64,000 bases of DNA from Alphaproteobacteria bacterium (GTDB lineage: Bacteria > Pseudomonadota > Alphaproteobacteria > Micropepsales > Micropepsaceae), in NCBI GenBank assembly GCA_028871345.1, contig JAGWNK010000001.1:1-64000 (forward strand), in the 5' to 3' direction. The notes beneath the pieces are model-generated. The model had not been told where the DNA came from, did no database searches, and saw nothing but the letters and a program-made list of their open reading frames with translations. Every line of letters starts with the position of its first letter. Within the stretch, counting starts at the first letter, position 1. Of the stretch, positions 4,833 to 31,899 are shown piece after piece. Made by a program: the position numbers and the translations under genes.

Positions 4833-7800
4833 ATGGTCGGACGCTGGCAATTCTGGATCGACCGCGGCGGCACGTTCACCGACGTCGTGGCGCGGCGGCC
4901 CGACGGCACGTTCGCCATTGCCAAGGTTCTGAGCGAGAATTCGGAACGCTATGGCGACGCGGCGGTGGCCGGCATCCTGACGGCGCTGGGGTTGCCGGTA
5001 ACGGCGCCGGTGCCGCAGGAGCGGATCGATGCCATCAAGATGGGCACGACCGTGGCGACGAACGCGCTGCTCGAGCGCAAGGGCGCACGCACATTGCTGG
5101 TGGTCAACGAAGGCTTCGCCGATCTGCTGGAGATCGGCCACCAGACCCGGCCCAAGCTGTTCGATCTGGCGATCCGGAAACCTACGATGGTCTATGAGGC
5201 GGTCGAGGAAGTGCGGGGGCGCGTTGATGCCTCGGGACAAATTCTCGCGCCGCTCGACGAGGCTGCGACGTTGGCCGTGATGCGCCGCCGGATCGCCGAA
5301 GGCTTCGAATCCTGCGCGATCGCCTTGATCCACGCCTGGCAGTTTCCCGACATGGAAATCCGGCTCGCGGCATTGGCACAGGAGGCCGGATTCCAGCAGG
5401 TGTCGGTGAGTCATGTCGTGAGCCCGCTGGTCGGGCTGGTGGCCCGCGGCCGCACGACCGTGACCGACGCCTATCTGTCGCCCATCCTGCGCCGCTACGT
5501 CGACCGATTGACCGACGCCCTCGGCGGTACACGGCTCTACTTCATGCAGTCCAATGGCGGGTTGGCGGATGCCGCCCGCTTCCAGGGAAAGGATGCCATT
5601 CTGTCGGGGCCGGCAGGTGGCGTGGTCGGCGCGGCACGCACGGCAGAGGCGGCAGGCTTCCGCAAGATCATCGGATTCGACATGGGCGGCACTTCCACCG
5701 ACGTGTCGCTCTATGCCGGCCAGTTCGAGCGGGCGCTCGACACCGAGATCGCCGGCGTCGAATTGCGCGTGCCGATGATGGCGATCAACACGGTGGCGGC
5801 GGGTGGCGGCTCGATCCTGCATTTCGACGGAGCGCGCTTTCGCGTTGGACCCGACAGTGCCGGGGCCAATCCAGGTCCCGCCTGCTACAGGCGCGAGGGT
5901 CCGCTGACGGTCACAGATGCGAACGTGCTGCTCGGCAAGATCCAGCCGCGTCACTTTCCGGCGATATTCGGGCCCGGCGGCGACCAGCCGCTGGACGCGG
6001 CGGTCGTGGCGAAAAAGTTCGCGGCGCTGGCGCAGAAGGTCGAAGCAGCGACTGGCCGGCCGCAGGAGGTGCGAGCCGTTGCCGAGGGCTTCCTGCGGAT
6101 CGCCGTCTCCAACATGGCACAGGCGATCAAGCAGATTTCGCTGGAAAAGGGTCACGACACGGCGGACTTCACGCTGCAATGCTTCGGTGGCGCGGCGGGA
6201 CAGCATGCCTGTCTGGTGGCTGACGAGCTGGGTATGACGACCGTGCTCATTCATCCCTATGCTGGAGTGTTGTCAGCTTATGGCATGGGACTGGCCGATC
6301 AGAGCCTCATCCGTCAACAGGCGATCGAACGGCCCCTCGACGACGTGGCAGGCAACGAAGCAGCCAGGGTTCTGGAACGTCTGACTACGGATGCAGACCG
6401 CGAAGCCACGGTGACACGGACGGCGGACCTTCGCTACGCCGGAACGGATGCTGGCCTCACTGTACCGTTTGGACCCGTGGCGGCGATGCGTGCCGCATTC
6501 AACGCAGCGCACAAGCAACGGTTTGGATTCGCCACTCCCGAGCGCGACGTCATTCTCGAAAACGTGACGGCCGAGATCATACATCCGGGGGAGCACGTGG
6601 CGCTTCCGGTGCGGTCAAAAAGCGACGGCTTACCCCCTGCCCCTGTTGACCAGGCGTCGCTGTGGAGCGGCGGGCGAGCGCACGCTGTTGGCATCTTCGA
6701 CCGCGATACCCTGCGCGCCGGCGACCGCATCACGGGCCCCGCCCTGATCCGGGAGGCCATCGCTACCACCGTGGTTGAGCCGGACTGGACAGCTGAAATG
6801 GGCCCTGCCGGCGAGTTGGTGTTGCGTCGAACGACGCCGCGACCGCACAACTCCGTCGCCGACGCCGGGGCGCCGGATCCAGTACTCCTGGAGCTGTTCA
6901 ACAACCTCTTCATGGCGACCGCCGAACGCATGGGCGTCGTGCTGCGCAACACCTCGACAAGCGTGAACATCAAGGAGCGGCTGGATTTCTCGTGCGCTCT
7001 GTTCGACGCCGACGGCAATCTGGTGGCGAATGCCCCGCACGTGCCGGTGCATCTCGGTGCCATGGGTGAAAGTGTCCGTACCGTGCTCAGGGCACGGCGC
7101 AAAGCGCTCAAGCCCGGCGACATGATTGCACTCAACAATCCATTCAATGGCGGCACGCACCTCCCCGACATCACGGTAATCGCGCCGGTGTTCGACGACG
7201 GCGGGCGCGATATCCGCTTTTTCGTCGGCAACCGCGGTCATCACGCCGATATCGGCGGCGCAACGCCCGGATCAACGCCGCCGGATTCGACCACTCTGGA
7301 GGAAGAAGGCGTCGTCATCGACGACTTCCTGCTGTTGGACGGCGGCACGTTCCGCGAAGGAGAATTCAGGGCGCTGCTGGCCAGAGCGCGCTACCCGGCG
7401 CGAAGCCCCGACACCAACGTCTCCGACATCAAAGCGCAGGTGGCGGCGAACCAGGCCGGCATAGGCGAGCTCAGCGCTCTGGTGGCGCGCTACGGCTGGA
7501 CCGTGGTGCAGGCATATATGCGTCACGTGATGGCCAACGCCGAAGAGAGCGTCCGCCGCGTGATCGACCGGATCGGCGACGGCAGTTTCGACTACCAAAT
7601 GGACGATGGCGGGCGGCTCAAAGTCACGGTGAAGGTCGATCACGCCCGGCGCGAGGCGGTTATCGATTTCACAGGCACGACCGGCGAGCATAGGGGCAAC
7701 TTCAACGCCCCGCCCGCCGTGACGCGCGCCGTGGCGCTGTTCGTCTTCCGCTGCCTTGTAGATGACGACATCCCGCTCAACGAAGGTTGCCTGAAGCCGC

Positions 7801-18076: not shown

Positions 18077-18232
18077 TCAGTGCTTGCCGGGGAACCCCCC
18101 CAGACCGTGAAAGGTCATGAAGAGCGAGTAGGCGCAGACGGAAACCGCGATCAGGATCTCGAAGCAGAGAAAGGCGACCCCGTATTTGTACCAGGGCTCA
18201 TGCAGTTGCGGCATTTCAGGTATCGATTTCAT
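18077..18232 (-). CDS. 51-residue single-span membrane protein after narK
   Basis: ATG 18232, preceded by GAGG, encodes 51 residues starting MKSIPEMPQLHEPWYKYG, with one hydrophobic helix (VAFLCFEILIAVSVCAYSLF) and a short tail ending GGFPGKH. It begins 27 bases after the narK stop on the same strand and is the last gene of the nitrate operon. The N terminus with MPQLHEPWYKYG would face one side and the Gly-rich tail the other. It may be a small subunit or stabiliser of the transporter; that is inferred only from position. Confidence 0.65.
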   Translation of the reverse strand: MKSIPEMPQLHEPWYKYGVAFLCFEILIAVSVCAYSLFMTFHGLGGFPGKH

Positions 18233-18259: not shown

Positions 18260-19567
18260 CTAGGCGTTTTCGGCCGCCAGTGAAATCGGCAGCAAGCCGT
18301 GTTCTTCGGGATGGCGCTCGTGGCGCGCAGCCCAGAAATAGAAGAGGACGAACGGCAGGAACATGTACACCGCCACCGTGAAGTAACCGGTGTGAATATT
18401 CGGGCCGCCCGCGAAAAACAGCGGATAGATTATGCCGGCGGCCGTCGAAACGCCGCCTATGAACCCCGCAGCCGTTCCCGGCCGGTCGGGAAAGAGCAGC
18501 GGCACAAGTGCAAACGTGCCGCCTGTCCCGAAGGATATGAAAACGCCCAACGCCACGAGCACCGCCACCGAGAGGTGCAGCGAGCCCGACAGTCCCGCCG
18601 CGGCAAGGCCCGCCGTCCCCAAGGTGATCAGGATCAGCGCGATCCCCAGCCAGTGAAGCCGTGGAGCATAGGGCAGGCTTTTGGCGATGAAGGGCAGCGG
18701 CGTCCACCCCCTGCGCTGGAATAGGTCCGACATGAACCCCGCAAAGGGGCGCAAGAGAGACGCCGTGAACGACTGAACCGCGGCGAAGGTACCTGCCGCA
18801 ATCTGCAGTCCCGCCACGCTTGTGAACCCCAGGGCCAGGATCGCCGCGTGGAAGCCGCGTGAGAAATATCCCGGCAGCCAGGCGTTCATCGCGATCTCAA
18901 GCCCGAAAGACATGGCATAGGCCAGCATCAGCGCGATGGCGATGTAGCGGCTCCAGACGAACACCGTGCCGCGGACATTGCTCCGGCAGCGGGCGACTTC
19001 GCGCCGCGCCGCCGTCTTGGCCGCGCGGCCCCGCACCAGGTACCAGGCCGCCAACAGCACGGCGATCGCGCCCAACCACAGGAAGGCGGCGTGGTAGTCG
19101 GTACCGAAGATGCGCGGAAGGACCAGGGCGCCGGCCCCGGCGCCGACATTGCCCGTGCCGGCATAGAGGCCTTCGGCCGTACCGATCTCGTGATCCTCGA
19201 ACCATTGCGCGACGTGCTGGATGCCCACCACGAAGGAAACGCCTGCGACGGCCACTATGATGCGCTCCGCGAACAGGAGCGTGTAGTCCGTCGTGTAGGC
19301 CGAAGCCACCGAGACCAGACCGCAAACCGCCAGGACGGCGGCGAAGGTGCGCGGTGCGCCGAAGCGGTCCGACGCCCATCCTGCCACGATGCGGCCGATC
19401 GGCGCCATCCAGATCGCAGAACTTGCCAGCAGGCCGAGCGCCTTGATGCTGAGATGATAATGGGCGGCGATGCTGGGGCTGAAAGCCGCGGTTGAAAACC
19501 ACATCAGAAAGCACCAGAAGAATCCCACCGTTGCGATGATGAGCTGTTCCACCTTCTGCGTTTTCAT
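18260..19567 (-). CDS. narK: NarK-type nitrate/nitrite transporter (MFS)
   Basis: 435 residues with about twelve membrane segments. The start at 19567 (MKTQKVEQLIIATVGFFW) has GAGGAG seven bases upstream. The MFS loop 2-3 motif is GRIVAGWASDRFGAPRTF. The nitrate-porter glycine-rich motif is GTAEGLYAGTGNVGAGAGAL, repeated in weaker form in the second half (GTAAGFIGGVSTAAGIIYPL). These are features of the nitrate/nitrite porter branch of MFS. It sits between the porin and the small membrane gene in the assimilatory operon, so nitrate import is the likely role. An oxalate/formate-type substrate is less likely given the context. Confidence 0.85.
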   Translation of the reverse strand: MKTQKVEQLIIATVGFFWCFLMWFSTAAFSPSIAAHYHLSIKALGLLASSAIWMAPIGRIVAGWASDRFGAPRTFAAVLAVCGLVSVASAYTTDYTLLFAERIIVAVAGVSFVVGIQHVAQWFEDHEIGTAEGLYAGTGNVGAGAGALVLPRIFGTDYHAAFLWLGAIAVLLAAWYLVRGRAAKTAARREVARCRSNVRGTVFVWSRYIAIALMLAYAMSFGLEIAMNAWLPGYFSRGFHAAILALGFTSVAGLQIAAGTFAAVQSFTASLLRPFAGFMSDLFQRRGWTPLPFIAKSLPYAPRLHWLGIALILITLGTAGLAAAGLSGSLHLSVAVLVALGVFISFGTGGTFALVPLLFPDRPGTAAGFIGGVSTAAGIIYPLFFAGGPNIHTGYFTVAVYMFLPFVLFYFWAARHERHPEEHGLLPISLAAENA

Positions 19568-19596
19568 TGTCTCCTCGTTCGGCAAATCTGGAGCCA

Positions 19597-20862
19597 TCAA
19601 TATGTGAAGCTGGCGGTCAGCCAGGTGATGCGCTTGTTCTTGAACCCGCCCGCACCGACACCTGCCCCGCTGTAGGCCGCGTAGCTCGCGTCGAGGGCGA
19701 GGTGCTTTCCGAATGCGGCATTCAGGGCGAGGTCCCATTCGTGCCCGATGCCGACACCGGTGCGGTCGGTCGTGTAGCGGTGATAGATGAGCTGCGGCGT
19801 CAGGGTCGCGATCGCGAAGGCGTTCTTGAACGAATAGGAAAGATGGGCATCGAGGTCGTCGATGCCGTTCTTGGGCGTTGCGAGGAACAAATCGGCCCAA
19901 CCGTCGAAGGCGTGCAGCGTGGCAAGCGGCGTTGCAAAGCCGACGGTGCCGTTTCCTCCCATCGCCTCGTAGCCGGCTCCGCCGGCGAGGCCCGCATAGG
20001 CGAGTTGCCCTTCCAGGTCCCAGTAATAGAGATTGACCGCGTTCGGGTTCGCCGCGTAGGCCGTCTGATAGGCGAAGGCCCCTGCGAAATGCATGACGAT
20101 ATCGTCGCCCAGCAGGCGTCGCCATTCAGCCCGCGCGCCGTAACTCGCCGTCGAGGCCGCGGGCGCCTCCTTCAGGTCAAGAAGATAGATGTAGCCTTCG
20201 AGCTTCACAGCGGGAAAACCGGTGTAGACGGCGTTGAAGATATGGCTGTCGCTGATGTAGTGGCCGATGGCGGCCCCGCTGCGGCTTTCGGGACCGAAAA
20301 CCCGGTTGACGCCGCCGATCCAGGCATAGGTCAATTTGGTGTCGGGCAGCGAAGTGTTGACCACAGAGACGGCGTCGAAGGTCTGCTCGTGCTGGCGGAA
20401 ACCGACATTGCCGATGAATCGCGCGTTGCCGAGGATGATGCGTTGGCGTCCCGCCGCAACCGTCGTCCCGTCGATGCCGTCATAGGAAATCTGAAGCCGG
20501 TCGAGCGCCGTCAACGTCGGGTCGGCAACCACCGGATAGGCGGTGCGGCCGTTCGATTTGCTGTCGTAATCCTGCGGCCCGAGCGACAAGATCTGATCGA
20601 TTTCGAAGAGTGCCGAGAAACCCCGCCAGTTCGCCGTCTGGTAGCCGAGCCGCGCACGCAGCGTCTTGGCACTGGCGTCCTTGCCGGCGCAGGCGGCGCA
20701 ATTGTCGTCGCTGACGCCTTCGTATCGGAGGCGGACATCGACCAGGGGCTTGCCCTGCCCTAGCATGTCCTCGACCCACGACGCCCGTGCCGCCGGCAAG
20801 GCGGTAACAGCAGCGCACATAACGGCGCCCGCAATCCCGAACCTACGATGCCATTTCTTCAT
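19597..20862 (-). CDS. alginate-export-type outer-membrane porin
   Basis: 421 residues with a signal peptide (MKKWHRRFGIAGAVMCAAVT, cleavage near ARAS). The mature part is beta-rich with repeated amphipathic strands (VDVRLRYEGVSDDN, TLRARLGYQTANWRGFSALF, ISYDGIDGTTVAAGRQRII, ending ITWLTASFTY), typical of the alginate_exp/AlgE-like fold. A short Cys pair CAAC is near the N terminus. Its place between nasA and narK suggests an outer-membrane path for nitrate or nitrite, not alginate; that reading is inference from operon position. Confidence 0.8.
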   Translation of the reverse strand: MKKWHRRFGIAGAVMCAAVTALPAARASWVEDMLGQGKPLVDVRLRYEGVSDDNCAACAGKDASAKTLRARLGYQTANWRGFSALFEIDQILSLGPQDYDSKSNGRTAYPVVADPTLTALDRLQISYDGIDGTTVAAGRQRIILGNARFIGNVGFRQHEQTFDAVSVVNTSLPDTKLTYAWIGGVNRVFGPESRSGAAIGHYISDSHIFNAVYTGFPAVKLEGYIYLLDLKEAPAASTASYGARAEWRRLLGDDIVMHFAGAFAYQTAYAANPNAVNLYYWDLEGQLAYAGLAGGAGYEAMGGNGTVGFATPLATLHAFDGWADLFLATPKNGIDDLDAHLSYSFKNAFAIATLTPQLIYHRYTTDRTGVGIGHEWDLALNAAFGKHLALDASYAAYSGAGVGAGGFKNKRITWLTASFTY

Positions 20863-20894: not shown

Positions 20895-23546
20895 TCATGC
20901 CACCACCGCAGGCTGGCCCGCGGCCAGAAGGCTCTTCAGTTCGGGAATGCAGGACCCGCAATTGGTGCCGGCGCCGAGGAGTTCGCCGATCTCTGCCGCC
21001 GTGCGCAGCCGCTTCGCACGAATGGCCTCCGCGATGCGCCGCTCATCCACCGAGAAGCAGGAACAGACCATGCGGCCTCGCTGCGGCAGGACCTCCGAGG
21101 CGACGCCGGACAGCAGCATGAGACGCGCGCTCGGCGACATTGCGCACCCGACGAAGCTTGCGACGCTGTCGCGCGACGGCAACGAGACGCCGGGCGGCGC
21201 GAAAAACACGCAAGCGTCCAGTTCTCCGGCAACCACGCCGGCGTAGCGGTACATCGACATTCTCGGATCGGAATACGAGATGAGTTCTGCGCTGTGTGGA
21301 ATCCGCAGGAGTCGTCGCAGTTTGGCCTCGCTGTCGATCACGCGGTCCAGCTCAGTCCAGCCGGCCAGGTCGAATGCGTAGCCGGTCGCCAACGGACTCT
21401 TCGACCAATAGATGTCGTTGGGCAGATCGGGTTCAGCCCTGCGCGTCAGCAGAAGGCCGTGCCAGGCGGACTTCACCAGGAACACGTCAGCCGGCGTGCC
21501 TTTGAGGTCCGGCTGCCCGGAGACCGGATCGGTCCGTGCGTGCACGAGACGGCCGACCGGGCCTGATGAAGTGAATTGATCCGTCCAGTGCATCGGCACG
21601 AAGATCTGGCCTGGGCTCGTCGAGGAGTCGACCTTGGCGCGCAGGACGGAACTGGCATTCTCGCTCTGCAGGCACACGAGTTCGCCGTCTTGGACGCCGC
21701 GGGCGGCCGCGTCTTGTGGGTGAAGGGCGACGAACGGTCCGACGCAGTGCGTCATCAGGCCCGGAACGCGCCCCGTTCGCGTCATGGTGTGCCATTGGTC
21801 GCGAAGGCGTCCGGTGTTGAGCGTCAGCGCCAGTTCCGGGCGCGCCGCTTCCGCCGTAACGTCAAGCGCGATCATGCGCGCACGGCCGTCCGCGGTGGGA
21901 AATCCGCCGCGGGCGAACAGGCGCGGACCCGCCGATAGGCGCCCTGGCTTCGGGCAGGGCCATTGCACGGGCGCCAGCGCATCGTAGTCGGCGCTCGTAC
22001 AGTCGGCGAAGGCGCCAAGATCGAACAGGCGCGCGCCGTCATTCTCGAAGCACGAAAGCGCGGCATGCTCGCGGAAGACGTCAGCAGGCCCAGGGTAGGC
22101 AAAGGCCTGCTCCCAACCCATCCGGCGGCCCACTTCCGCGAACATCCACCAGTCCGGCCGCGCTTGCCCCGGTGCCGCACGAAAGGCCCGCTGGCGCGAG
22201 ATGCGGCGCTCGGAATTGGTCACCGTACCGTCCTTCTCGGCCCAGCTTGCCGCGGGCAGCACGATATCGGCGCAGCGCGTCGTGTCGGTCGGCCAGGCGT
22301 CCGCGACGATGACCAGCGGACACATCTTGAGGGCCTCGCGGACGCGACCGGCGCGCGGCATGCTGGCGGCCGGGTTGGTTGCCGCAATCCAGACGGCGCG
22401 AATGCGCCCGTCTTCGACAGCATCAAACAGATCGACCGCCTTGAGTCCGGGTCGTGAGGCGATGTGCGGCGCACTCCAGAAACGGCGCACGCGATCGACG
22501 TTATCCGCGCTGAAGTCCAGATGCGCTGCGAGCTGGTTGGCGAGCCCCCCCACTTCGCGTCCGCCCATCGCGTTGGGCTGGCCGGTGAGCGAGAAAGGGC
22601 CCATCCCGGCGCGCCCGATGCGTCCCGTGGCGAGATGACAGTTGAGGATGGCGTTGACCTTGTCGGTGCCGCGGACGGACTGGTTCACGCCTTGGGAATA
22701 CAGCGTCACGACGCGCTCGGTTCCGGCGAACCAGTCATAGAAGCGGCGCAGGTCCGTCGGATCGACGCCGGCGGCCGCCGCGACAAACTCCGCGGACGGT
22801 GCCGACGCCGTCGCTGCCTCGACCGCGGCGCCGTAACCCGACACGTGCTTCGACACCCAGTCGCGGTCTGCCGCTCCGACGCGGTCCAGATGTGCCAGAA
22901 GCCGGTTGAACAGCAGGACATCGCTTCCCGGTGCGGTCGCCAGGTGCAAGTCGCAGGTTTCCGCCGTCGCGGTGCGACGCGGATCGAGGTTGACGATCCT
23001 GGTGCCGCGTCGTTCGCGCGCCGCCATCATTCGCTGGTAGAGGACCGGATGGCACCACGCCATGTTGCTGCCGACCAGTACGACGAGATCGGCCTCCTCG
23101 AGATCCTCGTAGCAGCCGGGCACGATGTCCTCGCCGAAGGCGCGCACATGCCCCGCGACCGAAGATGCCATGCAGAGCCGCGAATTCGTGTCGACGTTCC
23201 CCGAGCCGATGAACCCTTTCATCAGCTTGTTGGCCACGTAGTAGTCCTCGGTGAGGAATTGGCCGGAGAGATAGAAGGCGATGGCATCCGGCCCGTGAGC
23301 CTTCCGGATGGAGGTGAACTCGCGGGCGATGGCGTCGAGCGCTTCGCTCCAGCTCACTTCCTGGCCGGAGACCGTCGGGACCAGAAGCCTGTCCGGCAAG
23401 TCGAGCGTATCCTTGAGCGCCGCGCCCTTGGAACAGAGCCGGCCGTGGTTGGCCGGGTGTTCGCCGTCGCCCTTGGGCACGCCGTCCACAACGGCAATGC
23501 CGCAGCCGACGCCGCAATAGGGACATGTCGTGCGCAGCGGCTTCAC
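20895..23546 (-). CDS. nasA: assimilatory nitrate reductase catalytic subunit
   Basis: 883 residues, cytoplasmic, no Tat signal. The N-terminal [4Fe-4S] ligands are Cys8, Cys11, Cys15 and Cys38 (CPYCGVGC...LCSKG). The Mo-bis-MGD domain has NSRLCMASSVAG, Cys125 being the likely Mo ligand, with TGQPNAMGGREVGGLANQL and ADAWPTDTTRCADIVLPAAS. A molybdopterin C-terminal domain includes GRLRDQWHTMTRTG. The last ~60 residues add a BFD-like [2Fe-2S] module (CSCFSVDE...GTNCGSCIPEL), as in Klebsiella-type NasA. Reduces nitrate to nitrite. The start overlaps the nirD stop by four bases. Confidence 0.95.
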   Translation of the reverse strand: MKPLRTTCPYCGVGCGIAVVDGVPKGDGEHPANHGRLCSKGAALKDTLDLPDRLLVPTVSGQEVSWSEALDAIAREFTSIRKAHGPDAIAFYLSGQFLTEDYYVANKLMKGFIGSGNVDTNSRLCMASSVAGHVRAFGEDIVPGCYEDLEEADLVVLVGSNMAWCHPVLYQRMMAARERRGTRIVNLDPRRTATAETCDLHLATAPGSDVLLFNRLLAHLDRVGAADRDWVSKHVSGYGAAVEAATASAPSAEFVAAAAGVDPTDLRRFYDWFAGTERVVTLYSQGVNQSVRGTDKVNAILNCHLATGRIGRAGMGPFSLTGQPNAMGGREVGGLANQLAAHLDFSADNVDRVRRFWSAPHIASRPGLKAVDLFDAVEDGRIRAVWIAATNPAASMPRAGRVREALKMCPLVIVADAWPTDTTRCADIVLPAASWAEKDGTVTNSERRISRQRAFRAAPGQARPDWWMFAEVGRRMGWEQAFAYPGPADVFREHAALSCFENDGARLFDLGAFADCTSADYDALAPVQWPCPKPGRLSAGPRLFARGGFPTADGRARMIALDVTAEAARPELALTLNTGRLRDQWHTMTRTGRVPGLMTHCVGPFVALHPQDAAARGVQDGELVCLQSENASSVLRAKVDSSTSPGQIFVPMHWTDQFTSSGPVGRLVHARTDPVSGQPDLKGTPADVFLVKSAWHGLLLTRRAEPDLPNDIYWSKSPLATGYAFDLAGWTELDRVIDSEAKLRRLLRIPHSAELISYSDPRMSMYRYAGVVAGELDACVFFAPPGVSLPSRDSVASFVGCAMSPSARLMLLSGVASEVLPQRGRMVCSCFSVDERRIAEAIRAKRLRTAAEIGELLGAGTNCGSCIPELKSLLAAGQPAVVA

Positions 23547-23890
23547 GCAGCCTCCTCGCTCGTCGGCCGGCGGGGAATTCCGACGTGAATCTCACGGTTT
23601 TCGATCCGGACCGGCAGCGTCTCGACATGTCCCTCGTCGGGCGCCACCGCGTCGCCGCTCGACAGGTCGATGACCCAGTTGTGCAGCGGGCAGGTCACCA
23701 AGTGACCGGAGACGATTCCCTCCGAGAGCGGCCCAGCCCTGTGCGGGCACTGATCGACCACCGCGTGGACGGCATCGTCGCCGGTGCGGAAGACGGCGAT
23801 CGGACGGCCGTTATGGCCGAAGCAAAGCCGCCTCGCGCCGCAGCGCGGGATGTTGTCGAGAGAGCCGACATTCTTCCAGATCACGTCCAT
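23543..23890 (-). CDS. nirD: nitrite reductase small subunit, Rieske type
   Basis: 115 residues with a Rieske [2Fe-2S] fold. CPHRAGPLSEGIV supplies Cys-x-His and CPLHNWVIDLSSG supplies Cys-x2-His. NirD works with NirB in NAD(P)H-dependent reduction of nitrite to ammonium. Its start is 2 bases after the nirB stop, and its stop overlaps the nasA start, so nirB-nirD-nasA are tightly coupled. Confidence 0.93.
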   Translation of the reverse strand: MDVIWKNVGSLDNIPRCGARRLCFGHNGRPIAVFRTGDDAVHAVVDQCPHRAGPLSEGIVSGHLVTCPLHNWVIDLSSGDAVAPDEGHVETLPVRIENREIHVGIPRRPTSEEAA

Positions 23891-23892
23891 GC

Positions 23893-26361
23893 TCAGGCCT
23901 CCACCATCGCGGAGAGCTCGGAGAATTCGTGCGCTTCGGCGCCATGGACACGCTCGGCCCAGGGATCACGCTGGACGAAACTCTGGGCATGGATGAAGCG
24001 CCCGTGCAGCGCGCGACGGCCTTCCGCGTCATCGACCACGCGCCTCTTGACGTAAGCGATGCCGACGCGCGCGACCCACGGCGCGGTCCGCTCCAGATAA
24101 TGTGCTTCCTCGCGATAGAGCTGGAGGAAGGCGCCGGTATGCTCCAGGACCTCATCCTCCGAACGCACACGCACCAGCTTGTCGGTGACGCGTACGTCGA
24201 CACCCCCGTTGCCCCCGACCATGATGTCGTAGCCGGCTTTGACGCAGACCACGCCCAGATCCTTGATCGTCGCCTCGGCGCAATTGCGCGGACAGCCCGA
24301 CACCGCCAGCTTGACCTTGTGCGGCGTCCACGAGCCCCAGCACATCTTCTCCAGTTTGACGCCGAGCCCCGTCGAATCCTGTGTGCCGAAGCGGCACCAT
24401 TCGCTGCCGACACAGGTCTTCACCGTGCGCAATGCTTTGCCGTATGCGTGTCCCGAGATCAATCCGGCGTTGTTCAGGTCGCCCCACACCGCCGGCAGGT
24501 CGGCCTTCTTGACGCCCAGCAGGTCGATGCGTTGTCCGCCCGTCACCTTGACCGTCGGAATGGCATACTTCTCGGCCACCGAGGCGATGGCATGAAGCTC
24601 CGCCGGCGTGGTGATGCCGCCCCACATCCGGGGCACCACGGAATAGGTCCCGTCCTTCTGGATGTTGGCGTGAACCCGCTCGTTGACGAAGCGCGAGCGC
24701 GCATCGTCGGCATACTCGTCAGGCCAGGCGCAGAGCAGGTAGAAATTGAGTGCCGGCCGGCACTTGTGGCAGCCCTCCGGCTTCTTCCAGCCGAATGCCG
24801 CGCGGACGGCTGCCATGGTCTTGAGGTTCTGTGCCGGGATCGCCGCTCGAATCTCGTCGTGACCTGCCTCGGTGCATTCGCAAAGCGTCTTCTTGACGGC
24901 CTTCGCATCGACGCCTGCCGCAAAAGCCAGCAGGCTCTCGACCTGGCCGGTGCATTGGCCGCACGAGGCGGACGCCTTGGTATGCGCTCGGACCTCCGTC
25001 AGCGACGTCAGGTTCTTGTCGCGGATCGCGGCGACGATGGTCCCTTTCGACACCCCGTTGCAGCCGCAGATCTGGGTGTCGTCCGGCATCGCCGCCAAAT
25101 CCGGGCCTGGCGCTTTCGCGCCGTCCATCTCGGCGATGGCACGGCCGAACACCAGGCGCTCGCGCAGCGCGCTGACGTCCGCCTTGTCCTGCATCAACTG
25201 CAGGTACCACGCTCCGTCGGCGACGTCGCCGTACAGCACCGCGCCCACCAGCTTGCCGTCGCGCAGGACGATCTTCTTGTAGAGGCCGCGGCTTTCGTCG
25301 CGCAGGGTGATCTCGTCATCCGCTTCGTCGGCGGCCATCAGGGCGCCCGCCGAGAAGACGTCGACGCCGGTGATCTTGAGCCTGGTCGAGAGGGCGCGCG
25401 CCGCGTAGATTGCCGTCGCGTCGCCGGCCAACTGTGCGGCACACACCTTGGCCTGGTCCCAGATCGGTGCCACCAGTCCGAACACCTGCCCGCGATGCTC
25501 CACGCATTCTCCGACGGCGAAGATGCTCGTGTCGCTGGTGCGCATGTCGTCGAAGACGACGACGCCGCGATTGACCTCGAGCCCGGCCGCCTTCGCCAGA
25601 TCGATGTTTGGCCGGATGCCGATTGCCAGCACGACGAGATCGGCCGGAATGAAGCGCCCGTCGGCGAGTTGCACGCCTTCCACGCGCTCCTTGCCGACGA
25701 TCTGCTCGGTCTGCCCGTTGGTGAAGAAGGCGATGCCGCGGCGGTCGAGGTCGCGTTGGAGAAGCTGTCCGGCCGCGGCATCCAACTGGCGTTCCATCAG
25801 GGTCGGCATCAGGTGGACGAGCGCCACCGACATGCCGCGCTGCTTCAGCCCCCAGGCCGCTTCCAGCCCGAGCAATCCGCCCCCGATCACCACCGCCCGC
25901 TTCTGCGTGCGCGCGGCCTCCAGCATCTTCTCGACGTCGGCGATATCGCGGAAGGCGCAGACGCCGGGCAGCGCCAGTCCTGGAATCGGCGGCGCCAGCG
26001 GCCGCGAGCCGGTGGCGATCAGAATCCGGTCGTAGTGCACGCTGAGACCGCTGGCGGCCGTCACCAGCTTCGCGTCACGGTCGATCGCTGTGACCGGATC
26101 GCCGGTGACCAGGCGGATGCCGTTGTCCCCGTACCAGGATCTTGGATTGATGACGATGTCGTCGAGGTCCTTGTCACCGGCCAGGACCGACGACAGCAAG
26201 ATCCGGTTGTAGTTCACATGCGGCTCGGCGCCGAAAACCGTGATGCGGTAACGCCGTCCGGCCTCATGCTTCAGCAGCTCCTCGACCGTGCGCATGCCGG
26301 CCATGCCGTTGCCGATGACGACGAGATGCTCGCGCGGATCAGACAGCATGTTCTTTGGCAT
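23893..26361 (-). CDS. nirB: NAD(P)H nitrite reductase large subunit
   Basis: 822 residues. The N-terminal FAD/NAD domains have VVIGNGMAGMRTVEELLKH and VVIGGGLLGLEAAWGLKQRG. A BFD-like [2Fe-2S] centre follows (CGCNGVSKG...ASCGQCTGQ), then the ferredoxin-like nitrite/sulfite reductase repeats. The siroheme/[4Fe-4S] ligands are in CVGSEWCRFGTQDS and SGCPRNCAEATIKDLG. Converts nitrite to ammonium in the cytoplasm. ATG 26361 is chosen by family alignment; upstream in-frame codons lie within the leader. First gene of the nitrate/nitrite operon, with a sigma54-like promoter and structured leader ahead. Confidence 0.95.
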   Translation of the reverse strand: MPKNMLSDPREHLVVIGNGMAGMRTVEELLKHEAGRRYRITVFGAEPHVNYNRILLSSVLAGDKDLDDIVINPRSWYGDNGIRLVTGDPVTAIDRDAKLVTAASGLSVHYDRILIATGSRPLAPPIPGLALPGVCAFRDIADVEKMLEAARTQKRAVVIGGGLLGLEAAWGLKQRGMSVALVHLMPTLMERQLDAAAGQLLQRDLDRRGIAFFTNGQTEQIVGKERVEGVQLADGRFIPADLVVLAIGIRPNIDLAKAAGLEVNRGVVVFDDMRTSDTSIFAVGECVEHRGQVFGLVAPIWDQAKVCAAQLAGDATAIYAARALSTRLKITGVDVFSAGALMAADEADDEITLRDESRGLYKKIVLRDGKLVGAVLYGDVADGAWYLQLMQDKADVSALRERLVFGRAIAEMDGAKAPGPDLAAMPDDTQICGCNGVSKGTIVAAIRDKNLTSLTEVRAHTKASASCGQCTGQVESLLAFAAGVDAKAVKKTLCECTEAGHDEIRAAIPAQNLKTMAAVRAAFGWKKPEGCHKCRPALNFYLLCAWPDEYADDARSRFVNERVHANIQKDGTYSVVPRMWGGITTPAELHAIASVAEKYAIPTVKVTGGQRIDLLGVKKADLPAVWGDLNNAGLISGHAYGKALRTVKTCVGSEWCRFGTQDSTGLGVKLEKMCWGSWTPHKVKLAVSGCPRNCAEATIKDLGVVCVKAGYDIMVGGNGGVDVRVTDKLVRVRSEDEVLEHTGAFLQLYREEAHYLERTAPWVARVGIAYVKRRVVDDAEGRRALHGRFIHAQSFVQRDPWAERVHGAEAHEFSELSAMVEA

Positions 26362-26505
26362 GGCTCGCAAACTCAGCGCACACGACGCCGCCGGACGAAT
26401 CCGGATGCGAACCGCCATTGGCCCGCGGGATATCCCTGCTGCTCAGGAAAGCGCGCCCGCCTTTGGACGACCTTCCGCCGTTCGCCTCAGGCACGACCGA
26501 CGGAA
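26362..26505 (-). promoter_or_regulatory. nirB leader, candidate NasT antitermination region
   Basis: The predicted transcript has about 140 untranslated bases. On the minus strand the first part (26505-26473) can form an 8-bp stem TTCCGTCG/CGGCGGAA (one G-U pair) closing a loop that contains GCC-TGA-GGC. Next, CCTG-AGCAG-CAGG (26447-26435) forms a second short hairpin. CCGGA-TTCG-TCCGG (26404-26391) is a third, with a stable tetraloop, near the start codon. Paired stem-loops before a terminator are the known target of ANTAR proteins such as NasT. The exact ANTAR loop bases were not confirmed by eye. Confidence 0.5.
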
Positions 26506-26512
26506 ATATTCA

Positions 26513-26528
26513 GGCAAACTCCATGCCA
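26513..26528 (-). promoter_or_regulatory. sigma54 (RpoN) promoter of nirBD-nasA operon
   Basis: TGGCATGGAGTTTGCC on the minus strand matches the sigma54 consensus TGGCAC-N5-TTGCA, with the obligatory GG at -24 and GC at -12 separated by exactly ten bases. Transcription would start near 26502, leaving a leader of about 140 bases before nirB. This predicts NtrC-type nitrogen control added to NasS/NasT nitrate control. No NtrC site was identified. Confidence 0.65.
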
Positions 26529-26624: not shown

Positions 26625-27836
26625 TCAGGAATTGTGCAGTGCACCGGCCGGCCTCGTGACGGACTGGGGATCGAACACGGCCCCATCGCAGAACCCATCC
26701 GCGGCCATGGCGAGCTCGGAGGGCGCCGCTTCCAGCGTCCAGCCGGCGGCATGGGCGCCCTCGGTCTTCCAATCCGTAAGCGGCGCAGAAACGTCCATCG
26801 ATGACGCCGCCAGGCGGTAGAGGTCGGGACGGTAGACCTTGTTTGCGAGCGCGCCCTGGTCGTGGGCATCCGAAATAAGCTTCCATCGCGCCATTTCGCG
26901 AAGGAACCACAGCGCGTGGGAGCGCCACGGGAAGGTGGCGGCCCCGCGGAAAAAACACGAAAGAGGGTTGGGCGCGACGGAGCCGCCCGGCAGCGAGGCC
27001 ATGATCGCATGACTGTCGACGTCGAGATATCGCCGCCGGGAGAGCAGCGCCGCCACGTAGGAGGCGTTTTCGGGCAAGTCGCAAAACTGCGCCGCGCGCA
27101 GCAAGGCGCGAATGGCGCCTTGCAAGGCATCAGGATTCTCGTCCGCCCATTGCGCTCGCACGGCGAACGCCTTTTCGGGCGCGTCCTGCCAGATGTCTTT
27201 GGAGGCGGCGATGGTCGCTCCGGCCCCCGCTCTGACCGCGATTTCACCCCATGGCGCCCCGGCGCAGAACCCTGCGATCCGCCCCTCGCCGAGCGCCTGG
27301 GCGGTACGCGCCGGCGGCACGACGACCAGCTTGACGTCCTGTTCCGGAACGACGCCCGCCGTCGCCAGCCAATAACGCAGCAGAAGATTGTGGGTCGAAT
27401 AGGGATGCACGATGCCCAGCGTGGCAGGCGTTTCGCGGATTTCCCGCGCGAAGGCCTGCGCGATACCCGCCCCTTCGCGGTGCGCGCGCGTATGCGTGCG
27501 CTCGGCCAGGTCCTTGGTCACGGTGATGGTGTTGCCGCCGTGGCTGATTGCACAGGGGATGATCAGCTTTTGCGCCGTCCCCCGCAGCCCCAGCTCGACG
27601 GCGAATGCCAGGGGCGGAACGATCACGGCTGCGTCGAGGAAGCCGAACGCAAGCTTGTCGGCGATGTTCGCCCAGGACGGTTCGACCGACAGTTCCGTGT
27701 TCACCGCCTCGTCGCCGAAATAGCCGAACTCGTGGGCCACGATGACCGGCGCCGAGTCCGTGAGGCGCAACAGGCCGATGCGCAATCTGGCCGCCGGCAC
27801 CCCGCCGATTCCCGACCGATGCGTGGAAGCGCTCAT
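26625..27836 (-). CDS. nasS: NasS-type nitrate sensor (NrtA-like, cytoplasmic)
   Basis: 403 residues resembling the nitrate/bicarbonate ABC binding proteins NrtA/CmpA (LRIGLLRLTDSAPVIVAHE, EPSWANIADKLAFGFLDAAV, GIVHPYSTHNLLLRYWL). It lacks a signal peptide, so it should stay in the cytoplasm. In NasS/NasT systems this protein holds NasT inactive when nitrate is absent and releases it when nitrate binds. It starts 24 bases after nasT on the same strand and precedes the nirB promoter, which fits that role. Confidence 0.88.
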   Translation of the reverse strand: MSASTHRSGIGGVPAARLRIGLLRLTDSAPVIVAHEFGYFGDEAVNTELSVEPSWANIADKLAFGFLDAAVIVPPLAFAVELGLRGTAQKLIIPCAISHGGNTITVTKDLAERTHTRAHREGAGIAQAFAREIRETPATLGIVHPYSTHNLLLRYWLATAGVVPEQDVKLVVVPPARTAQALGEGRIAGFCAGAPWGEIAVRAGAGATIAASKDIWQDAPEKAFAVRAQWADENPDALQGAIRALLRAAQFCDLPENASYVAALLSRRRYLDVDSHAIMASLPGGSVAPNPLSCFFRGAATFPWRSHALWFLREMARWKLISDAHDQGALANKVYRPDLYRLAASSMDVSAPLTDWKTEGAHAAGWTLEAAPSELAMAADGFCDGAVFDPQSVTRPAGALHNS

Positions 27837-27860: not shown

Positions 27861-28442
27861 TCATGTTTTGCGGGCATCTCTGTCCTCCTGGCTGACGAAT
27901 TCGGCCACCACCTGGGCAAGCCTGCGGTTCTCGTTCATCGCCTTGCGCTGGAGCCAGCGATAGGCCTGCGGTTCGGTCATCTTGCGATCCCGCATCAGGA
28001 TCGCCTTGGCGCGTTCCACCAGACGGCGCTCATCGAGCCGCGCCTGCGCCGCCGCCAGTTCGCGTTCGACACGCCGGTAGCGGCGGAACAGGGCGATGGC
28101 GGCCGCCATGATCGGCTTGATGTCCTTGAGGGCGACGCCGGAGAGATTGTAGGAGCAGACCCCTGCCCCGATCGCCTGCTCGACAAAGGACGGGTCGTCG
28201 GAATCGGAGAACATGACGATCGGCTGCGAGGTGGAGATGGCGCGCACGTCCTCCAGGGCGTCGCGATCGGGCAGCGCCATGTCGATGATGACGACGTCGG
28301 GCTTCGCGTCCTCCACCGCCGCCGCAAGATCGGAACCTGCCGGCACGCGCAGCACCTGCGCGAAACCGTCTTCCGAAAGCTTCTCTTCCAGCGCCTCGGC
28401 GCGCCGGTCCTCGGCATCGATGAGCAGGATTCTGAGCGGCAT
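27861..28442 (-). CDS. nasT: NasT-type ANTAR antiterminator / response regulator
   Basis: 193 residues. An N-terminal receiver-like domain (LRILLIDAEDRRAEALEEKL, phosphoacceptor-equivalent Asp in VVIIDMALPD) is followed by a coiled linker. A C-terminal ANTAR domain (RRLVERAKAILMRDRKMTEP, then AYRWLQRKAMNENRRLAQVV) is the RNA-binding helix bundle. NasT binds leader RNA of nitrate genes and prevents termination. ATG 28442 is used; the preceding codon is GTG, so translation could start at 28445. Forms an operon with nasS. Confidence 0.92.
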   Translation of the reverse strand: MPLRILLIDAEDRRAEALEEKLSEDGFAQVLRVPAGSDLAAAVEDAKPDVVIIDMALPDRDALEDVRAISTSQPIVMFSDSDDPSFVEQAIGAGVCSYNLSGVALKDIKPIMAAAIALFRRYRRVERELAAAQARLDERRLVERAKAILMRDRKMTEPQAYRWLQRKAMNENRRLAQVVAEFVSQEDRDARKT

Positions 28443-28610
28443 CACGCGGGATCATTTGGGTTTGAATGCGACAATGCAATGGCAGATGGTGAACGGCCGG
28501 CGTGAGACCGTCGAAGGCCGGCACAAAACCCGCGCGACACCCGCGTCCTCATTATCGTCCTCGGTCTCGGCAGTGCTACCATCAGGCCCGTATTCGAAGG
28601 AGGGCAACCG

Positions 28611-28964: not shown

Positions 28965-28984
28965 AGGCCGTACGGTTACGGCCT
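28965..28984. terminator. hairpin between convergent CMD gene and mobA
   Basis: AGGCCGTA-CGGT-TACGGCCT is a perfect 8-bp stem with a four-base loop at the meeting point of the two genes, overlapping the mobA stop. It could end transcription in both directions. No long T run follows on either strand. Confidence 0.45.
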
Positions 28985-29599
28985 GCTCCGGTCCAGCCAT
29001 CGCTCCGCGGCCGCCAGATCGTCGGGCTGGTTGATGTTGAAAAAGGCGTCTCCTCCCGGTCCGTCGTCACAGTCGCTGAAGTCGGCATAGCCGCAGCGAA
29101 GCACGTTCCGCATGGCCTTCAGGCTGCGTTCGCCGACGGCGTAAGCGGCGGTCAGACGGTCCGCGCAGGTCACGACGAAAAGCGCGAAGGCGAATTGCGT
29201 GTCGCCGCCATGGCGCGCCATCGTGCAGTCGACGCCGTCGCCGCGCGCTTGCCGGAGCCGCGCGACCAGATCGTGCGGGAAGAACGGCGCGTCGCAGGGG
29301 AACGTCGCGACCATGTCGAAGCCGTGGCTGCGGGCCCAGCGAAGGCCGGCAAGGATGCTGCCCAGCGGTCCTTCGCCGGGCGCCTCGTCCGGTATCACCA
29401 GAAGTCCGCGAGCCGCGCGGTGCGCCGGCCCGTTCAGCGCCAGAAGATCGACTTGCGGCGTCGCGCGCGCGATGACGCGCTCGATCAACGTCGTGCCGCC
29501 AAGGACGGCCAGCGCCTTGTCCGATCCGAAACGCCGCGAAGAGCCGCCAGCAAAGACCAGGCCCAATATGCCGCCCGCCGCGCGAACATCTTCAGCCAC
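28976..29599 (-). CDS. mobA: molybdenum cofactor guanylyltransferase
   Basis: 207 residues. The nucleotidyltransferase signature LVFAGGSSRRFGSDKAL near residue 13 is the GGxSxRxGxDK motif of MobA. Next come EGPLGSILAGL and FPCDAPFFP (metal-binding Asp). It attaches GMP to molybdopterin to make the MGD form used by NasA. Its place just beyond the nitrate locus fits supply of cofactor to nitrate reductase. Confidence 0.9.
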   Translation of the reverse strand: MAEDVRAAGGILGLVFAGGSSRRFGSDKALAVLGGTTLIERVIARATPQVDLLALNGPAHRAARGLLVIPDEAPGEGPLGSILAGLRWARSHGFDMVATFPCDAPFFPHDLVARLRQARGDGVDCTMARHGGDTQFAFALFVVTCADRLTAAYAVGERSLKAMRNVLRCGYADFSDCDDGPGGDAFFNINQPDDLAAAERWLDRSRP

Positions 29600-29750
29600 G
29601 AGCGATGTCTCTCCTCAGCTTGACCTTCGGGTGGACCAATTCCGTGCGATCCCGGCCGGCGCCTGCTTTGGCAGCATCGACCGCCGGTGCGCTTCGATCA
29701 TGCCCCAGCCGCGCAAGCGGGAACACCGGGAAAATTGTCATGCCGGGCGC

Positions 29751-29781
29751 GGGCGCCGCGGCCGCCAGGCCCGCGGCGCCC
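29751..29781 (-). terminator. GC-rich hairpin downstream of hcp
   Basis: GGGCGCCGCGG and CCGCGGCGCCC are perfect 11-base arms around a nine-base loop, starting 8 bases after the hcp stop. The following bases on the minus strand include an AATTTT run about 15 bases away. A plausible but imperfect intrinsic terminator. Confidence 0.45.
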
Positions 29782-29788
29782 GGCTCGC

Positions 29789-31453
29789 TCACGCCACCCG
29801 GGCGAGACACGCCGCGATGTCGGACTTGCTGTCTCCGGTCGGCGCAATGCCGAATTTTTCCACGAGCACGCCGACCAGCGCCGGCGTCAGGAAGGCGGGA
29901 AGCGTCGGGCCGAGGCGGATGTTGCGCACGCCCAGGGCCAGCAGGGTCAGCAGAATTGCCGCCGCCTTTTGCTCGAACCAGGATATGACAAGCGACAGTG
30001 GCAGATCGTTGACGCCGCAGCCGAACGCCTCGGCCAGCTTGCTGGCGACGACGATGGCGGAATACGCGTCGTTGCACTGCCCCATGTCGAGCAGCCGCGG
30101 CAGGCCGCCGATGGTGCCGAAATGGTGCTTGTTGAAGCGGTACTTGCCGCAGCCGAGCGTCAGGATGATGGTGTCCCGTGGGGCATGATCGGCGAATTCG
30201 GCGAAATAGTTGCGCCCGTCCTTGACCCCGTCGCAACCGCCGACCAGGAAGAAGTGGCGCACGGCCCCGCGCTTCACGGCGTCGATCACCTTGTCGGCCA
30301 CGCCCAACACCGCGTTGTGGCCGAACCCGACGGTGATCGCCTCATCCGGCCCGTCATCGAGGAATCCGGGCAGCGCTTTCGCCTGTTCCACGACGGCCGC
30401 GTAGTTGCCGTCGGCGATGTGCGGGATTCCGGGCCAGCCCACGGGGCCCAGCGTGTAGAGGCGTCCGCGGTACTTCGGTTGCGGCTTGATCAGGCAATTG
30501 GAGGTCAGGACGATGGGGCCGGGAAAGTCGGCGAATTCGAACTGCTGGTCGTGCCAGGCGCCGCCGAAATTTCCCTTGAGGTGCGCATAGGCGTGCAGCC
30601 GCGGATAAGCGTGGGCAGGCAGCATCTCGCCATGGGTATAGACGTTGACGCCGGTATTCTTCGTCGCCTCCAGGATTTCCAGAAGATCCTTGAGGTCGTG
30701 GCCCGACACCAGGATCGCCTTGCCTTTAACCGGCGCGATGCGGACGCTTGTAGGCTCAGGCGTTCCGAATGTGCCGGTGTTGGCGGCGTCGAGCGCCTCC
30801 ATCGCGGTGAAATTCAGGCGGCCGAGCGCGAGGCCGGCCTCGAGCAGCGTGTCGAGATTCGCCTCCTCCCCTGCCAGGAGGTCGAGCGCGCGTTCCATGC
30901 CGGCGTAGACGTCCTCGCGTTCGCATCCGAGCGCGGCGGCATGATAGGCGTAGGCGGCGACGCCCTTGAGGCCGTAAAGCAGCAGGGCGCGCAGGCCGAT
31001 GGCATCTTCACCCAGTCTTTCGACACCGTGCTTGACGGCGGCCTCGCCGGCGTGTGCCAGCAGGCCCTCTCTGTCGTGCGCCGGCGAGAATGCGGCCGGA
31101 CCGCAGAGTTGCTCGGGAGTCTTGCCGGCGGTGCGGGCGGCGTTCTCGTAGATGGCTTTGACGCGGTCCCGGACCGTTGCCGCTTCGCCGATCAAGGCGA
31201 CGAACTTGGCCGGATCGAAATTGACGTTGGTCAAGGTCGTGAACAGGGCCAATTGCAGAAAGCGGTCGGCTGCGACATCGACGGCGCCGAGCGCGCGGGC
31301 GCGCACCGCGTACTGGCCGATGCCCTTGCAGACGTGGATCAGGACGTCTTGGAGATCGGAGGTTGCGGCGTCCTTGCCGCAGTCACCTCTGGAGCCGAAG
31401 CAGCCGAACTTGCCGTCGTCGAATTGAGTCTGTTCACATTGATAGCAAAACAC
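29789..31453 (-). CDS. hcp: hybrid cluster protein (hydroxylamine reductase)
   Basis: 554 residues starting at GTG 31453, with GGGAGG five bases upstream. The N-terminal cluster ligands are CYQCEQTQF...[11 protein letters not shown] (four Cys). Downstream hybrid-cluster ligands include [41 protein letters not shown] and [14 protein letters not shown]. Hcp reduces hydroxylamine and acts as an NO reductase that protects against nitrosative stress. An Fnr-like site lies upstream. Position next to mobA and nitrite reductase suggests it deals with reactive by-products of nitrite reduction. No hcr reductase gene is adjacent. Confidence 0.94.
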
Positions 31454-31504
31454 ATGCGCCTCCCGTCGCGCCGCGGGCCGCCGGCGGCCGGCGAACCCGG
31501 GCGA

Positions 31505-31518
31505 TTGATAAAGATGCA
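31505..31518. promoter_or_regulatory. Crp/Fnr-type half-conserved site upstream of hcp
   Basis: TTGAT-AAAG-ATGCA matches the Fnr/Dnr consensus TTGAT-N4-ATCAA at eight of ten positions. It is centred about 58 bases before the hcp start codon. hcp genes are commonly under Fnr/NnrR/Dnr control, and a Crp/Fnr regulator is encoded at 35265-36005. Confidence 0.35.
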
Positions 31519-31899
31519 GCGCATCTACATCATTCAGCGATGGCTTCCAGACGACGATCCGACGCGTGCGCGTCTGTCGCGGAACATCCGGTGCGCTTTG
31601 CGTTTCGTCCTCGCCGATCGGCACGTCGTTTTGAACGTATCGATGCCGTTCGCCGCGACGTGGCTCTTCGACTTAATGACGGCGCGCCAACGCTGCGATC
31701 TTTCGTCGGTCGCGGGACTGTTCCCGAACGCGGCACGATCGCCCGAACGCTTCGCCGTCGATCGAGGCCGGGCATTCGATCCGCCAGCCGATTTTCGCGC
31801 CGATGAAATCATCGCCGACTGGGCTGTGCCGCCAAGGCGGAACAGGCGTTGCCCTGGACGCCATCGGACATCATAACCCGCGGATTTTATTTGATTTTC
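31519..31899. other. non-coding gap between hcp and tRNA-Phe
   Basis: About 380 bases with no frame of believable composition on either strand. Besides sequence close to the hcp promoter, nothing recognisable is seen. Confidence 0.4.

Follow-up and report, generated by a model that had tools for sequence, protein, structure and literature searches.

How does a nitrate-sensing NasS-NasT pair act on the nitrite and nitrate reductase genes downstream of it: by letting RNA polymerase pass through their leader, or by letting ribosomes start at its end? ANTAR proteins are mostly described as antiterminators. The question is raised by a stretch of 64,000 nucleotides from an Alphaproteobacteria bacterium (contig JAGWNK010000001.1, positions 1 to 64,000; hereafter the window), for which a sequence-only reading had proposed that nitrogen limitation starts transcription through NtrC and that nitrate, through NasS and NasT, allows read-through into a nitrite/nitrate reductase operon. 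The model that we favor, with a probability of about two in three, is that the leader would instead be a nitrate-responsive switch that turns translation on and that heads a sigma54-transcribed nirBD-nasA-narK operon.

The nas locus and its candidate promoter

The genes lie on the minus strand in the order nasT, nasS, a 263-base gap, nirB, nirD, nasA, a porin-like gene, narK and a 51-codon frame. The nasT gene (27861-28445) encodes a protein of 194 aa with a response-regulator receiver domain (PF00072, E 3e-11) and an ANTAR RNA-binding domain (PF03861, E 7.5e-17), and is the single ANTAR match in a search of the genome. The nasS gene (26625-27836) encodes a nitrate/nitrite-binding sensor of the NMT1-like type (NMT1_2; PF13379, E 1.6e-76). 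The domains of both proteins agree with the earlier placement of nasS-nasT upstream of the leader, and a REC-ANTAR protein and an NMT1-like sensor adjoin nitrate assimilation genes, as expected of a NasS-NasT system. These genes are nirB (23893-26361, with the ATG at 26361 taken as start; TIGR02374, 933 bits), a gene for a nirD-like Rieske protein (23543-23890; PF13806), one for a nasA-type molybdopterin nitrate reductase with a C-terminal BFD [2Fe-2S] domain (20895-23546; PF00384, PF01568, PF04324), one for a porin-like outer-membrane barrel (19597-20862, its start inferred from the translation), one for a narK-type MFS transporter (18260-19570; MFS_1, E 8.5e-24, with a TIGR00886 match under its cut-off) and, at the operon end, one for a small membrane-like protein of 51 aa (18077-18232). 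The gene content proposed for the operon from the sequence (nirB, nirD, nasA, a porin, narK and a small protein) is confirmed by domain matches for nirB, the nirD-like Rieske protein, nasA and the narK-type transporter; the porin has a weak Alginate_exp match under the cut-off (E 0.031), and the small protein is an open reading frame only. A MobA-like gene and an hcp gene for a hybrid-cluster protein (28976-31624, same strand, upstream of nasT) possibly belong to the nitrate/nitrite response as well.

A candidate sigma54 -24/-12 element, TGGCATGGAGTTTGCC, lies at 26528-26513 of the minus strand and has the exact GG-N10-GC spacing that had been claimed for it. Taken alone it is weak evidence, because 31 of 100 shuffles hold at least one match to TGGCAYNNNNNTTGC, of which the window has one against 0.38 expected. 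The element nevertheless recurs at a conserved position: among the 26 related leaders described below, 22 carry a GG-N10-GC element scoring at least 9/12 at 75-120 nt before the second leader hairpin (P2), versus 5.2% of random 180-mers. The four leaders with no element at this score are L063, L066, L069 and L071. Transcription would begin near 26502. The genome has one match over the curated cut-off for rpoN (445.6 bits; cut-off 277) and one for ntrC (703.8 bits; cut-off 558.6). The suggested search for NtrC sites upstream of the element found none above chance in 170 bases of the window (the best, 7/11 and 8/12, are near random), and none stands out across the leader set. Judged by sequence features, nitrogen-limitation control of the operon is likely, with NtrC as its presumed activator.

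Two hexaloop hairpins and a predicted competing helix at the nirB start

The leader contains two hairpins on the minus strand, P1 (cgtccAAAGGCgggcg, 26454-26469), with the hexaloop AAAGGC (26464-26459), and P2 (gcgggccAATGGCggttcgc, 26407-26426), with the hexaloop AATGGC (26419-26414). P1 is formed in the free minimum free energy (MFE) structure, and P2 is the proposed ON state. Both loops carry the A1/G4 signature of ANTAR targets, which are dual hexaloop hairpins, and the earlier claim of an ANTAR-type leader, which was to be given up if no such motif were found, therefore holds. With stems of at least five pairs (one of at least seven) and loops 20-80 nt apart, a hexaloop pair arose in one of 2000 dinucleotide-shuffled versions of the leader, and neither strand of the 64 kb has another besides P1 and P2. 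When the whole genome was searched with a covariance model built on the motif, the window leader was likewise the single hit. Searches of the leader region against Rfam at gathering and relaxed thresholds returned no match, and the folding energy of the leader is unremarkable relative to shuffles (z -0.12). Across nine aligned leaders of the genus, the P1 stem covaries (4 of 6 pairs changed on both sides) and the P2 stem is almost frozen, with 100% of cells paired and one G-U wobble kept in 9/9. Such invariance, together with a retained wobble, could be expected of a stem in which one strand has two partners.

Two such partners are available to the 3' arm of P2, GGUUCGC: the 5' arm of P2, or GCGAGCC directly before the nirB start codon, a helix that we call AP2. 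The AP2 element UGCGAGCC (26362-26369, minus strand) pairs with the P2 3' arm plus an A (26413-26406), abuts the nirB AUG at 26361 and is the proposed OFF state. The unconstrained leader fold has P1 and AP2 in both the MFE and the centroid structure, and the pairing probability in the window is 0.98 for AP2 versus 0.00 for P2 (shuffle p 0.007). Forcing P2 costs 4.6 kcal/mol in a short module, and 3.1 kcal/mol in the long leader with P1 forced too. Two small hairpins read off the MFE fold occupy the AP2 loop (26374-26404, minus strand): CCGGA-UUCG-UCCGG and CGGCGU-CGUGU-GCGCUG. A helix touching positions -16 to +7 would be expected to block the ribosome. No strong Shine-Dalgarno sequence was seen in AP2, and in the window forcing P2 does not raise the unpaired probability at the leader's own start (0.39 to 0.26).

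The position of AP2 depends on which ATG starts nirB. The open reading frame has its first ATG at 26418, inside the P2 loop, and a second in-frame ATG at 26349. The former is probably not the nirB start. As a general start, the P2-loop ATG was rejected, being absent in 8 of the 26 leaders and not open and in frame in 14; in the remaining four (the window, L054, L059 and L080) its frame is open and matches that of the gene. Against this rejection, tblastn similarity to NirB sets in at or after residue 23 of the long frame in only 5 of 10 loci. In the window the longest nirB frame begins at the P2-loop ATG, and a product annotated automatically could gain 19 residues in error. The ATG beside AP2 was taken as the start in the window and in L053; by a motif rule the start would fall 12 and 50 nt later, respectively. 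The nirB start of the window is 45 nt beyond P2 and outside the dual-stem motif.

Conservation of the competing helix and distribution of terminators

Since a DNA similarity search for the leader was too narrow (4 of 61 genomes of relatives, own included), a covariance model was used, and it matched in 11 of 69 genus genomes, ten of them strongly; an ANTAR protein is encoded in 13 of 60 genus genomes, own included. A class-wide model search, shallow in that at most 13 candidates were scored per genome, matched in at least 7 of 385 genomes, two in the genus (own included) and five, weakly, outside it. Of 487 loci found by scanning named genomes for NasT, the best 80 were kept, and the leader set was then drawn from the model search and from sequence reading. 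It comprises 26 leaders: that of the window, 23 of the 24 top-ranking R1 model matches (E <=0.027), and L076 and L078, added by eye from genus relatives (model E 2.1 and 3.5). Excluded before the count were L097, whose match precedes a nasS-like gene, L077, with a match on the opposite strand (E 0.03), and every match with an E value over 0.027, L093 and L072 among them. The layout recurs across these 26 leaders, from Rhizomicrobium, Methylocapsa, Methylocella, Roseiarcus, Parvibaculum and others, and the distance from the P2 3' end to the start codon is 14-57 nt in 25 of them and 94 nt in L053.

R1 spans P1 to P2 only, and AP2 lies outside the model. From the 20 nt preceding each start codon we chose, regardless of the arm, the 7-mer closest to GCGAGCC, a word derived from the same leaders on which it was tested. 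In 15 of 26 leaders the chosen 7-mer and the P2 arm form 7/7 pairs, versus 1.5% of all 7-mers between P2 and start, and in 17 they form at least six, versus 3.7%, the AP2 7-mers being included in both backgrounds. Three Roseiarcus leaders that do not have GCGAGCC can pair the arm 7/7 with the start codon itself (AUGAACC), which brings the number of leaders whose arm can pair fully with the start region to 18 of 26. It could be argued that GCGAGCC is kept as a ribosome-binding or coding-related sequence and that its complementarity to P2 is incidental, given that it sits at the Shine-Dalgarno position and that 11 of the 15 full matches, in related leaders, are this very word. We consider this very improbable; the Shine-Dalgarno character is weak, seven different arm/AP2 combinations preserve the pairing, and Roseiarcus can shift it to AUGAACC.

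Folding of the individual leaders is less uniform than the pairing counts. AP2 outweighs P2 in 16 of 26 leaders and does not in L054, L061, L063, L065, L068, L070, L075, L078, L079 and L080. L075 has no AP2, and AP2 is imperfect in L061, L074, L076, L078, L079, L080 and L083. In the Roseiarcus leaders AP2 does not outweigh P2, and the shuffle p values are 0.105, 0.145 and 0.112. The shuffle p is below 0.05 in 12 of 26 leaders; the combined value of 1e-10 over all 26 overstates the case because the leaders are related. With P2 forced, bases around the start become more likely to be unpaired in 22 of 26 leaders, the gain being close to zero in several of them. In L053 (G068, about 7246-7295) a 15-codon frame that starts beside AP2 ends in a TGA overlapping an upstream GTG of nirB (GTGA), and is possibly a coupled leader peptide.

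The reading in which AP2 acts as an intrinsic terminator, with NasT allowing RNA polymerase to read through as in classical antitermination, was that of the earlier analysis, and has the described roles of EutV, NasR and Bradyrhizobium NasT as antiterminators behind it (sections of PMC8934654, PMC3369931 and PMC6759348). Among 50 other NasT loci with an adjacent nasS, 35, mostly of Sphingomonadales, have a U-tract terminator after nasS, as read by hand from a scan, with no call either way for the remaining 15 (including L067, L072 and L073); in the relative G068, a second ANTAR leader, which contains a hairpin and T8, precedes a porin gene. The window leader has no U-tract terminator, because no T run longer than three lies between P2 and start, and the same limit applies to all 26 leaders. 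A hairpin-plus-T scan of 22 of them (the window, L070, L079 and L080 lay outside the scan) found no site between P2 and start; the two sites in L062 and L064 are both inside the gene. An intrinsic attenuator would have P2 overlapping a U-tract terminator before the gene, an arrangement that this leader does not have. The competing hairpin ends at the start codon and covers the bases before it, and elsewhere in these loci terminator-like sites with a U tract do occur. Intrinsic antitermination thus appears quite unlikely, the proposed read-through through NasS/NasT finds no backing in these leaders, and the output is probably not antitermination.

The difference between the two leader types is not due to base composition, because mean GC is similar (64% in the switch-type loci versus 66% in the terminator-type) and terminator-like sites occur elsewhere in both sets, at 1.09 per 10 kb in switch-type loci (16/26) versus 0.76 in terminator-type loci (27/35). 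One branch with SH-aLRT support of 100 splits the 26 switch-type from the 35 terminator-type proteins, with no direction of change implied, in a quick NasT tree of 81 rows (20 unlabelled) for which the tool warns of long branches meeting. L067, L072, L073 and L086 fall inside the switch clade and have no classified leader.

Some genomes hold more than one system. G068 has both kinds of leader, a switch-type leader before nirB and, on another contig (G068:C106), the second ANTAR leader mentioned above (L025, 3290-3420), in which two hexaloop hairpins and the hairpin-T8 terminator are followed by a porin gene 72% identical to that of the operon in the window; a NasT 33% identical to that of the window is encoded just upstream. 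In the relatives G079 and G072 (L021, L022) two NasT-like/NasS-like pairs lie about 12 kb apart on opposite strands.

Predicted switch and comparison with known ANTAR systems

In the proposed switch, when no free NasT is present the transcript would have P1 formed and the P2 3' arm paired to the AP2 element before the nirB AUG, as computed, and with the start region held in this helix ribosomes would be unable to initiate. By analogy with Paracoccus, NasS would bind nitrate or nitrite and release NasT. NasT would then bind the P1 and P2 hexaloops, so that the 3' arm stays in P2 and the start region is released. With translation blocked, the mRNA may in addition become vulnerable to Rho or to decay, so that transcript levels could drop too. 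The arrangement would be that of EutV, in which P2 and a competing helix are mutually exclusive, with the terminator swapped for sequestration of the start site.

More broadly, we lean towards the view that one clade of alphaproteobacterial NasT uses start sequestration where its cousins use a terminator, that translation would be turned on by nitrate under a nitrogen-limitation promoter, and that this is a mechanism of the kind needed for the translational effect of nitrate reported in Paracoccus. A start-sequestering ANTAR mechanism that turns expression on was not found in the portions of the open-licence literature searched. Such a leader, which should turn translation on, would illustrate how one protein-RNA module changes its output by moving the competing strand.

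The double control of nitrate assimilation by Ntr and ANTAR systems is already known in kind, and is combined in the Klebsiella nas genes (a section of PMC5424462). The window leader resembles Enterococcus eut/EutV, Klebsiella nasF/NasR and Bradyrhizobium nosR/NasT in having two A1/G4 hexaloop hairpins and an ANTAR protein. It further resembles the unbound eut leader, in which, according to part of PMC8934654, P1 is formed and P2 is embedded in a terminator or competing structure; the free fold of the window leader also has P1 formed and the P2 arm in a competing helix. Unlike the antitermination leaders eut, nasF and nosR, it has a competing helix that lacks a U tract and extends up to the start codon, and translation is its predicted output.

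The nasTS-nasABGHC locus of Paracoccus denitrificans is similar in its NasS-NasT pair, leader hairpins, Ntr and nitrate control, and a reported effect of nitrate on translation (sections of PMC5424462 and PMC3795266). NasS of Paracoccus releases NasT on binding nitrate or nitrite (PMC3795266, in part). The nas transcript is present on glutamate and the NasG and NasB proteins are seen only when nitrate is supplied, NasG is made by a nasS mutant in the absence of nitrate, and in a nasT mutant the nas transcript is missing; the authors propose that nitrate controls both transcription and translation (all from parts of PMC5424462). The missing transcript of the nasT mutant fits control of transcription in Paracoccus and counts against a purely translational reading.

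That transcript loss would also be explained by Rho-dependent termination, the main rival, in which an untranslated, start-sequestered leader is terminated by Rho and either NasT or the ensuing translation blocks Rho. Attenuation of this type needs no U tract and is compatible with the translation switch, as its consequence, although by itself it leaves unexplained why, in 18 of 26 leaders, the arm is able to pair with the start region; we regard it as unlikely to be the primary mechanism. The predicted translation switch offers a testable mechanism for the presence of nas mRNA in Paracoccus with no detectable Nas protein in the absence of nitrate. The start-sequestering helix predicted for the window is not mentioned for Paracoccus denitrificans in the available sections of PMC5424462 and PMC3795266.

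Other nas leaders were inspected as well. Hairpins with ANNGNN loops are present in three leaders on Paracoccus plasmids (L137, L138 and L140, from P. versutus, P. yeei and strain Arc7-R13), none of which has a T4 run between the hairpins and the next gene, unlike the intrinsic attenuator that is usually assumed; by eye, no AP2 was found in them. In the plasmid-borne nas cluster of Acidiphilium multivorum pACMV1 (L134, 7380-7520), the arm GGCCGCAU may, by eye, pair with GUGCGACC directly before the AUG in the manner of AP2. No hexaloop hairpins were found in stretches from Sinorhizobium meliloti (650 bases) and Komagataeibacter (116 bases).

Control of translation by ANTAR proteins has been raised before. 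Ramesh et al. (2012) listed ANTAR hits that have no terminators and, giving an example, suggested that these may control translation initiation (PMC3369931, in part). Actinobacterial ANTAR RNAs that contain the ribosome-binding site are said to repress translation when bound (Mehta et al., 2020, as cited in a section of PMC8164766). The window leader is similar to these RNAs in that an ANTAR RNA near the start codon is predicted to act on translation. The defining feature of the actinobacterial type, a ribosome-binding site or start inside the dual-stem motif, is absent from the window leader. In actinobacteria, as that section describes, the ribosome-binding site is within the motif and binding represses; in the window the start lies outside the motif, in the competing helix, and binding should activate.
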